Assembly: GCA_016874755.1 (NCBI GenBank) | Contig: VGTH01000006.1 | Location: 105,564-169,563, forward strand | Origin: Deltaproteobacteria bacterium | Lineage (GTDB): Bacteria; Desulfobacterota; Binatia; UBA9968 | Length of the DNA stretch: 64,000 nucleotides | Direction of reading: 5' to 3' | In this document: piece after piece, positions 15,520 to 31,780 of the stretch | Layout of the letters: the number at the start of each line of letters is the position of its first letter | How positions within the stretch are numbered: position 1 is the stretch's first letter | The notes under the pieces: generated by a model | What the model was told of the DNA's origin: nothing | Database searches by the model: none | Seen by the model: only the letters and a program-made list of their open reading frames with translations | Translations under genes and position numbers: made by a program

Positions 15520-16248
15520 CTACTTCGACTTGGCGGCAAAGACGTTTTTGTAGTCCGCCCAGGCCTGCGGCCCGGCGCGATCGAAGACTTTGTCGCGCAG
15601 CCCGCCGGCGTATTCGGCTGGAATGTAGTTGATCTTTTCCGTGTAGGAAGGCTTCAAGCGCATCCCCTTGGCCTCGAACTCGTCGGCCAATTTGAGATTG
15701 GCGAGCACCGAGGCGAGCTCCGCATGATCTGTCCACATGGCTTTGTAGGCGATCTTGCCGTGCTTATCGACGATATAAATCATATTGGGCAAAGAGCCGT
15801 AGGCCCGATGCACCGGGCCGTCGAGATCGTCAACCAACAGGACAGATTCAATACCGTCTTGCTGTCGGCAATCGCGGGCAAATTTTAGCTTTTGCTCCCA
15901 GCTCCTGTGCGCGCCATAGTTTTCTCCTGGATGCGGCTCGCGCACGTAGATCGTGAAAAATTCAAATCCCCTCTCGCGGTATTGCGCATATAGCTTGTTC
16001 AAGGGCGAGACCTCGCCCACAAACGGCGGTCAGGTAATACTGCCAAATTCCAGCAGCAGATGTTTTCGGCCCCGGAATGCAGACAGACGAACCTTCTCGC
16101 CGTCAACCGTAGGCAGCTCAAAATCTGGCGCATCCTCACCGGCGCGCAAAGCGGCCTTAAACTCGCCCGACATACCGGCGCTCTCAGAACGGGAAAACGC
16201 TTCGTAGTTGTAGCTATCGGAAATGTTTCTGCTCTCCGGTTTAGCCAT
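15520..16248 (-). CDS. Deiodinase-like thioredoxin-fold protein with in-frame TGA, probable selenoprotein
   Basis: Two frames, 16248 down to 16033 and 16029 down to 15520, are in the same phase and separated only by one TGA at 16030-16032. Read through, the protein has 242 residues with EFGSIT-U73-PPF at the active site, followed by FFTIYVREPHPGENYGAHRS. These match the iodothyronine-deiodinase signature FGSxTUPPF and its IIYIEEAHxxDGW...HRS block. Seventeen bases after the TGA the mRNA forms GGGCGA-GGUC-UCGCCC, a 6-bp stem with a GGUC loop as in the E. coli fdhF SECIS. The start at 16248 follows AGGAGG at spacing 10. The function is likely a thiol/selenol redox or reductive dehalogenation reaction in the cytoplasm; that is inference. 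The alternative is a nonsense mutation of a Cys or Trp codon. Confidence 0.8.
16005..16032 (-). promoter_or_regulatory. Putative bacterial SECIS element downstream of the TGA codon
   Basis: On the minus strand the TGA (16032-16030) is followed by 17 bases and then the loop GGUC, closed by a perfect 6-bp stem GGGCGA/UCGCCC. The loop sequence is the one bound by SelB in E. coli fdhF, where the loop starts 18 bases after UGA. Spacing and the G at the loop start both fall in the known range for bacterial SECIS elements. Confidence 0.7.
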
Positions 16249-16342
16249 CGTCGGTGGTCCTCCTATACGGCTAGTAACACATCTCGCCAAGGCGGATTTA
16301 CCCCGGCTATACCTCAATTTGTTTTCTATAGAATCTCAATTC

Positions 16343-16560
16343 TCACCGAACCTCGGCGCGGATCGCTGATTTAGCGGTCTCCCAATCGGTGAAATGACCT
16401 TTCCCTCTGCGATCTTATGCCGGCGCTCTTCGAGGGCGTCTCTGTGCCACTCCGGTGACTCGAAGGAATCCGGAGAGCGAGTAAGCTCTTCCCAGAATAA
16501 TTCCATCGCAGCAAGCTTTTCCTGCTGGGTCATGTCATTAAGAGGAAAGTTAACTGACAT
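16343..16560 (-). pseudogene. Frameshifted addiction-module antitoxin (Unstab_antitox/RelB-like)
   Basis: From the ATG at 16560 the frame gives FPLNDMTQQEKLAAMELFWE, then SPEWHRDALEERRHKIAEGK, the normal body of this small antitoxin family. After EGK the reading frame is wrong, but in another frame (16396 down to 16343) the expected ending HFTDWETAKSAIRAEVR followed by TGA is intact. A single-base loss near 16398 explains both. No RelE/ParE toxin gene lies on either side, so this is an orphan. It could be a real decayed antitoxin or a sequencing error. The uninterrupted longer frame to 16336 is therefore misleading at its C-terminus. Confidence 0.75.
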
Positions 16561-16625
16561 AGCCGAATTATATACCTCAACGCACTCACGACAATTTTGC
16601 ACCATAACCCATTCGCTTCAACCGT

Positions 16626-30697: not shown

Positions 30698-31780
30698 ATG
30701 GCTACCTGTCGTGCCGCCATTATTACTGAACACAATAAACCGTTATCCATTCAGCAGGTGGAGATTCCCACGTTGGATCGGGGCTCGCTGCTAATCAAGA
30801 TTTCCGCGTCGACGCTCTGCGGCACCGACGTGCATCGTTGGCACGGACCGCTCGGCGATAAAGACACACTGCCGATCATCACGGGCCATGAACCCTGCGG
30901 CACCGTCGAAGATATCGCCGGCGAGCGCACCGACATTCTCGGTCAGCCCGTGAAACGCGGCGACCGCGTGGTCTGGAGCTACGTCGCCTGCGGCTCTTGC
31001 TATTATTGTTCGGTTGCCTGCCAGCCCTGTATTTGCCGCGGCCGCGCGTCGTGGGGGCACAATCGCAGCGATCAACATCCCTATCTACTCGGCAGCTGTG
31101 CCGAATATATGTATGTGCCGCCGGAATGTTTGATCATCAAAGTGCCCGAAGACGTGAGCTCCGCCTCCGCCGCCGCTTCGGCCTGCGCCTATCGCACGGT
31201 CATGCACGGGTTCGACCGCCTGGGCGCAATCAAATCGCACGAGACCGTCGTCATCCAGGGCAGCGGGCCGCTCGGCAACTTCGCCACCGCGGTGGCCAAA
31301 GACAGCGGCGCCAAAAAAGTTCTGGTCATCGGTGCGCCGGCGGCGCGCCTTGAAGTGACCAAAAGAATGGGCGCCGACGCAGTGCTGAACTTGGAAGAAG
31401 TGACCGATGAGAAACTGCGCCGCCAATGGGTGCGCGACCAAACAGCCGGGCGCGGTGCCGACGTCGTCGTTCAGGTCGCCAACAACATGGCCGTGCCGGA
31501 AGGATTGACGCTTTTGCGCGACGGCGGCCGCTACTTGAACATCGGTGCCGGCGGCAAGGCTAACATCGCCGTGGAAAAAATTCCCCAAGAAATGCTCTTC
31601 ATCACCGTGCGCTCCGGCGAGCCGCGCCACTGGCTGCAAGCCATCGATTTTCTGTCGTCGCGCAGAAAGACCTTTCCGTTCGAAGAAATGATCACCAAGA
31701 GCTACAAGCTCGATCAGATCAACGAAGCGATGCAGGCGATGGCGAGCTTTTCGGTGGTCAAAGCCGTGATCAATTTCTAA
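30698..31780 (+). CDS. Zinc-dependent alcohol dehydrogenase (MDR family)
   Basis: AAAGGA precedes the ATG at 30698, which I use instead of 30671. The 360-residue protein has the catalytic zinc site CGTDVHRW and GHEPCGTVEDI, the structural-zinc cysteines in ACGSCYYCSVACQPCICRG, and the nucleotide fold IQGSGPLGNFATAVAKDSGA. It belongs to the medium-chain dehydrogenase/reductase group similar to threonine or sorbitol dehydrogenases. It oxidises a secondary or primary alcohol with NAD(P). A strong terminator follows at 31807, so the transcript ends here. Confidence 0.92.
   Translation: MATCRAAIITEHNKPLSIQQVEIPTLDRGSLLIKISASTLCGTDVHRWHGPLGDKDTLPIITGHEPCGTVEDIAGERTDILGQPVKRGDRVVWSYVACGSCYYCSVACQPCICRGRASWGHNRSDQHPYLLGSCAEYMYVPPECLIIKVPEDVSSASAAASACAYRTVMHGFDRLGAIKSHETVVIQGSGPLGNFATAVAKDSGAKKVLVIGAPAARLEVTKRMGADAVLNLEEVTDEKLRRQWVRDQTAGRGADVVVQVANNMAVPEGLTLLRDGGRYLNIGAGGKANIAVEKIPQEMLFITVRSGEPRHWLQAIDFLSSRRKTFPFEEMITKSYKLDQINEAMQAMASFSVVKAVINF

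Follow-up and report, generated by a model that had tools for sequence, protein, structure and literature searches.

A deiodinase-like gene with a predicted selenocysteine codon in the genome of a Deltaproteobacteria bacterium

Does the TGA within a deiodinase-like gene of a Deltaproteobacteria bacterium end translation or specify selenocysteine (Sec), and what reaction would the full-length product support? The gene lies in a 64,000-nucleotide stretch of contig VGTH01000006.1 (assembly GCA_016874755.1, positions 105,564 to 169,563), here called the window and numbered from its first letter. The TGA, codon 73, is almost certainly read as Sec. This assignment rests on the Sec machinery of the genome, the interchange of TGA and Cys codons among relatives, a TAG codon accompanied by a tRNA with anticodon CUA in one of them, a hairpin that recurs in relatives, and the nucleotide identity of the hairpin codons.

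Gene structure and database truncation

The gene runs on the minus strand from an ATG at 16248-16246 to a TAG stop at 15522-15520, and read-through of the TGA gives a product of 242 residues. The features needed below, including the selenocysteine insertion sequence (SECIS)-like hairpin and the competing open reading frame (ORF), are the following.

15520..16248, minus strand: predicted deiodinase-like selenoprotein gene, 242 residues with the TGA as Sec (read-through translation; Pfam PF00837 and PF00578)
16259..16264, minus strand: AGGAGG, ribosome-binding-like site 5' of the ATG (sequence)
16030..16032, minus strand: in-frame TGA, codon 73, predicted Sec codon (reading frame; catalytic codons of relatives)
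16018..16020, minus strand: GTG, codon 77, gene callers' start of a 166-residue ORF (ORF list; homologue start positions)
16003..16018, minus strand: SECIS-like hairpin, 6-bp stem GGGCGA/UCGCCC, loop GGUC at 16012-16009 (fold; comparison with relatives)
15868..15870, minus strand: codon 127 (Cys), predicted resolving residue (position from reading frame; Cys conservation)

The joined protein contains the motif FGSIT-U-PPF and the downstream family block IYVREPHPGENYGAHRS, both of which a first-pass annotation of the DNA had pointed out, without naming the strand. It scores 56.4 bits against T4_deiodinase (PF00837, gathering cut-off 27) and 59.3 bits against AhpC-TSA (PF00578), above the cut-off in each case. 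The best solved relative by sequence is the catalytic core of mouse Dio3 (E 1.3e-13), and the Dio3 active-site residue aligns with the TGA, bearing out both the kinship with deiodinases and the placement of the TGA at their Sec position that the annotation had proposed. A structure model of the joined protein has a mean predicted local distance difference test (pLDDT) score of 92.4; Foldseek ranks Dio3 (4tr3) first and Dio2 (9h48) second, with ResA-type folds tying with the deiodinases. Judging from the model, the protein very likely adopts a thioredoxin/peroxiredoxin fold related to that of the animal deiodinases. Beside Sec73 it has exactly one other Cys.

Gene callers treat the TGA as a stop, and the GTG-started ORF of 166 residues that they report does exist. 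Such a call would be correct if the TGA were a real stop, whether in a pseudogene, between two genes (the second starting from the GTG at 16020) or through a sequencing error. A protein search at E 1e-5 found 299 homologues, of which the closest 120 are listed; the first is the window's own fragment. When the listed homologues are aligned to the full protein, their starts fall at residue 77 in 116/120 and at residue 83 in 4/120. The gene-caller error foreseen in the first-pass annotation is thus found in every listed homologue, and because all 120 begin behind the TGA, the family appears in databases as fragments that have lost about the first third of the protein and with it the catalytic residue. 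These fragment entries of a conserved enzyme family are often named 'hypothetical protein'.

Selenocysteine at codon 73

The first-pass annotation had proposed a search for the Sec machinery as a check, and the source genome (5.56 Mb in 101 contigs, 99.55% complete) proves to encode it in full. A tRNA-Sec with anticodon UCA scores 75.9 bits, and SelA (600 bits), SelB (411 bits) and SelD (382 bits), all above cut-off, are encoded side by side on contig 16. Genome-wide reassignment of TGA was considered and rejected; TGA terminates 12 of the 41 long ORFs in the window.

Relatives of the gene supply further evidence. A scan of genome contigs gave 204 confirmed relatives, 80 of them listed, and the locus counts below rest on these 80. 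Residues 100-108 and 168-175 served as the search patterns, so their conservation among the loci is not evidence. At the catalytic position, 35 loci have TGA, 41 a Cys codon (TGC/TGT), one TAG and three another codon (AGT, GAT and ACG, one each); TGA, Cys or TAG therefore occupies the position in 77/80, in keeping with the earlier proposal that the window's TGA encodes Sec. Five pairs were tried for nonsynonymous (dN) and synonymous (dS) divergence; two of them, window-L032 and window-L037, gave no dS and were not counted, and in the three measurable pairs, all of relatives, dN is lower than dS both before and behind the TGA. tRNA-Sec scores above cut-off in 31 of the 33 genomes with TGA genes (above 60 bits in 30) and in the genome with the TAG gene.

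The TAG case comes from Blastococcus capsensis (L099, 5184). The genome of this organism contains a gene of the tRNA-Sec family (L142, 266-361; 65.3 bits) with anticodon CUA, which ARAGORN labels, by its anticodon, as tRNA-Pyl. In Geodermatophilaceae, the use of UAG for Sec together with a tRNA of this kind has been described (PMC5330540). A TAG codon matched by a CUA tRNA-Sec would be difficult to account for if the residue were anything but Sec.

Other codons were seen at the same site in further genes. A paralogue at L042 (2457-3137; also L171) carries TGG, for Trp, in place of the Sec codon and retains the hairpin; together with TGA copies and a fragment it makes up a cluster of four deiodinase-like pieces. 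In five relatives belonging to the genus and family of the window organism (L160-L163, L172), Ser (AGC/AGT) occupies this position, with a Cys three residues beyond (SPMC) and no hairpin. With TGA, Cys, TAG and its matching tRNA, Ser and Trp all represented at a single catalytic site, the family forms a natural series in which to study how Sec is gained and lost.

The hairpin behind the TGA

A 6-bp stem with a GGUC loop had been described as lying 17 nt after the TGA. Stem and loop are as stated, but it is the loop that begins at 17 nt; the stem (16018-16013 paired with 16008-16003) begins at 11 nt. The published model of bacterial SECIS elements specifies a loop of 3-9 nt with a G in loop positions 1-2, a stem of 4-16 bp, a distance of 16-37 nt from the UGA and an energy of at most -7.5 kcal/mol (PMC13188914). 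The window hairpin agrees with this model in its loop, its 6 bp, its distance of 17 nt and its fold energy of -14.4 kcal/mol (over 40 nt). Rfam SECIS_1 has no match in the source genome, a null result that is uninformative because none of 14 control genomes has a match either. The two strands of the window together contain 1785 TGA trinucleotides; 35 of them are followed at 16-18 nt by a stem of at least 6 bp, and one by a 6-bp stem whose loop, at 17 nt, is GGTC. Where a TGA codon is flanked on each side by 60 or more open codons, a stem of 5 bp or longer occurs in 2/41 cases, namely this one and another at 30753. The latter (minus strand) lies between 63 and 89 open codons and has a 6-bp stem at 18 nt, probably by chance.

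The hairpin draws its weight from comparison across relatives rather than from the single sequence. Defined by a loop of 3-5 nt with a G in its first two positions, located 16-18 nt past the codon, and by a stem of 5 bp or longer, it is present in 32/36 TGA genes (the window included) versus 1/44 non-TGA genes among the listed loci; the TAG gene, which belongs to neither count, forms a stem of 8 bp at the 17-nt distance. Synonymous shuffles reach a mean of 9.7 and a maximum of 18 of 36 in 1000 trials, compared with the 32 observed, and this control is conservative because its codons were pooled from all loci, hairpin codons included. At exactly 17 nt, 31 of the 37 TGA/TAG genes have a stem of 5 bp or longer; ten distinct 5-bp stems are represented, and at every one of the first six pair positions more than one pair type is seen. 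Conservation was also assessed by codon in ten genomes (the window and L032-L040), where 110 codons encode one degenerate amino acid in all ten: 16/110 are identical at the nucleotide level, including 6/6 hairpin codons and 10/104 others, with a hypergeometric probability of 3.7e-6 that is optimistic because six of the ten genomes are close kin.

Two further points are weak or tell against the Sec assignment. Taken singly, the window hairpin is not significant (z -1.70), and at least 6 bp were reached in 3186 of 20000 synonymous shuffles of the window gene. tRNA-Sec is also present in 11 of the 16 sampled genomes with other codons (above 60 bits in 9), so the Cys forms are not limited to genomes that lack Sec. 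A real stop nonetheless accords poorly with the sharing of TGA or Cys at the same codon by most listed loci, with a dN lower than dS on both sides of the TGA in the three measurable pairs, with nucleotide-level conservation of the hairpin, with a complete Sec machinery and with the pairing of TAG and tRNA-Sec(CUA) in one relative, and must be regarded as highly improbable.

Comparison with deiodinases and related families

With codon 73 taken as Sec, the protein has Sec at the same place as Dio3 and Dio2, its top two structural matches. Its counterparts of the deiodinase proton relay, Ser70, Thr72, Tyr101, Glu104, His106 and His114, are identical at 6/6 positions in the alignment with Dio3, where they match Ser167, Thr169, Tyr197, Glu200, His202 and His219. 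The list of relay residues was taken from PMC11592359.

The window protein differs from Dio3 in several places. Nine Dio3 residues have no counterpart in the window protein, a gap that, in our own mapping, appears to correspond to the deiodinase-specific Omega-loop at the active site. Met156 stands in place of the clamp Arg275, with Met in 120/120 listed homologues, and Ile71 replaces the proximal Cys168. By eye, the protein also lacks the membrane-anchor-like N-terminal stretch of the animal deiodinases. Identity as an iodothyronine deiodinase was not assigned, as both the loop insertion and the basic clamp residue are absent.

Bacterial deiodinase-like selenoproteins are not new as such. They were reported in 2005, in Sec and Cys forms and with a suggested redox role (PMC1088965), and appear again in a 2008 table (PMC2398784). 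The window protein resembles them in Pfam family (PF00837), bacterial-type SECIS, the existence of Cys homologues and proposed redox role (PMC1088965, PMC13188914). Reviews, however, give their motif as UxxC (PMC13188914, PMC9312934), whereas the window protein has UPPF and a Cys 54 residues further on. This Cys127 is Cys in 120/120 listed homologues and in 10/12 close full-length proteins. Three residues after the Sec position (+3), the 37 TGA/TAG genes have Phe (12 genes), Cys (11), Thr (10) or Ala (4). The window's clade is unnamed and falls below the cut-off of NCBIfam NF038285 (deiodinase_rel), with 100.2 bits versus 250. By sequence comparison it is a distinct subfamily, combining a deiodinase-type fold and relay residues with one invariant Cys127 and lacking the thyronine loop, the clamp Arg and UxxC. 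For a UPPF subfamily with Cys127 but without loop or clamp, or for its truncation in databases, no published description was found in the open literature, subscription papers and preprints lying outside the search.

Two other families of this fold were compared. The 1-Cys and PrxQ-type peroxiredoxins (AhpE, BCP) have the peroxiredoxin signature PxxxTxxC; the window protein instead has a deiodinase-type SxTU site, with Leu66 and Ser70 at the signature's Pro and Thr places, and a canonical peroxiredoxin was rejected on this motif. ResA-type thiol-disulfide oxidoreductases differ in that the window protein has neither CxxC nor UxxC, and its score against the NCBIfam ResA model, 45.8 bits, is far below the cut-off of 170.

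Distribution and evolutionary placement

Matches occur in 27 of 148 genomes of the window's class (E 1e-20) and in 6 of 395 sampled genomes of the phylum (E 1e-15), its own included in each count. One same-order match coincides in position with L038, on a 'Candidatus Binatia' chromosome, and one same-family match with L032, in a groundwater 'Deltaproteobacteria' metagenome-assembled genome, which suggests a bacterium of Binatia type as the source.

A tree of 105 rows was built by a quick method, with catalytic and hairpin-coded columns removed and L088 (18 residues before the catalytic Cys) excluded; 38 of its 101 inner branches are open. The window protein is one of ten members of a starred clade, all with TGA as the catalytic codon. 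A different starred clade unites mouse Dio3 with nine TGA proteins from bacteria of the window's class (L029-L031, L165-L170), although the exact place of Dio3 is unsure because of its long branch (1.79). Each of the nine carries 11-23 inserted residues where the loop lies, the clamp Arg, and a Cys in the position of Cys127, making them candidate relatives of the ancestor of the animal deiodinases. Among tree rows having either state, Sec and Cys require at least 5 changes. In this family the selenium site of the deiodinases is uncoupled from thyronine recognition, and the origin of the animal deiodinases thereby becomes testable.

Proposed function

The protein is probably a selenoprotein with a Sec73-Cys127 redox cycle, acting on peroxide or a similar thiol-type oxidant rather than on thyroid hormone or an organohalide. 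Sec would be inserted via SelB and tRNA-Sec(UCA), aided by the SECIS-like hairpin. The Sec73 selenolate, lying beside Ser70, Thr72, Tyr101, Glu104, His106 and His114, would attack the oxidised substrate and so reduce a small oxidant such as peroxide. Cys127 would resolve the oxidised selenium as a selenenylsulfide, which a thioredoxin-type partner could then reduce. Counted in favour of a redox role are ten Cys-type loci (10/80 listed; L046, L047, L050, L051, L052, L053, L054, L055, L056 and L074) adjoining a divergent peroxiredoxin-like gene that has an in-frame TGA at the peroxidatic position.

The first-pass annotation had left the choice between reductive dehalogenation and a thiol redox step, and of the two the thiol step fares better, because the loop and clamp Arg are missing, Dio3 lies in another clade and no neighbouring gene points to dehalogenation. 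Dehalogenation, in which Sec73 would take a halogen from an iodinated or brominated aromatic as in the deiodinases, would account for the kinship with Dio3, the shared relay residues and the deiodinase-type SxTU site with UPPF. The missing residues, however, are the very insertion bordering the deiodinase active site and its clamp Arg275. Arg itself is not essential there, since Dio2 has Lys (Lys241) at this position (PMC11592359), but Met could not take over this role. A Pfam scan of eight neighbours within about 5 kb gave no hint of halogen metabolism, and dehalogenation is considered unlikely.

Similarly doubtful, and by a hair less so, is a ResA-like thiol-disulfide oxidoreductase or redox sensor, in which the Sec73-Cys127 pair would pass electrons to another protein. 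The tie of ResA-type folds with deiodinases, the match, albeit under cut-off, to the ResA model and the presence of exactly one other Cys are consistent with such a role, whereas a UPPF site in place of CxxC or UxxC and a complete deiodinase-type relay argue against it. A more speculative scenario, to which we attach little probability, pictures a deiodinase-fold branch of uncultured bacteria in which the Sec73-Cys127 switch replaced the thyronine pocket and serves an undescribed Sec-dependent reaction, possibly dehalogenation of natural organohalides, with the sister clade of the same class that bears loop and Arg as a candidate source of the animal deiodinases.

Neighbouring genes and other in-frame TGA codons

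If the gene and the ORFs that overlap it are set aside, the twelve close loci share no neighbour family. Six loci have a common upstream gene resembling a pseudouridine synthase, which is taken as unspecific as a clue to substrate. Just upstream of the deiodinase-like gene in the window, an 89-residue ORF (16336-16605, minus strand) matches PF09720, a putative addiction module component.

Elsewhere in the source genome, SelD (L143) has an in-frame TGA of its own, followed after 33 nt by a possible hairpin. Two peroxiredoxin-like genes, L022 (1501-1701) and L024 (204-425), also contain in-frame TGA codons, in the motifs FTPTU and WTPTU; a hairpin was found for L022, as for SelD, and none for L024.
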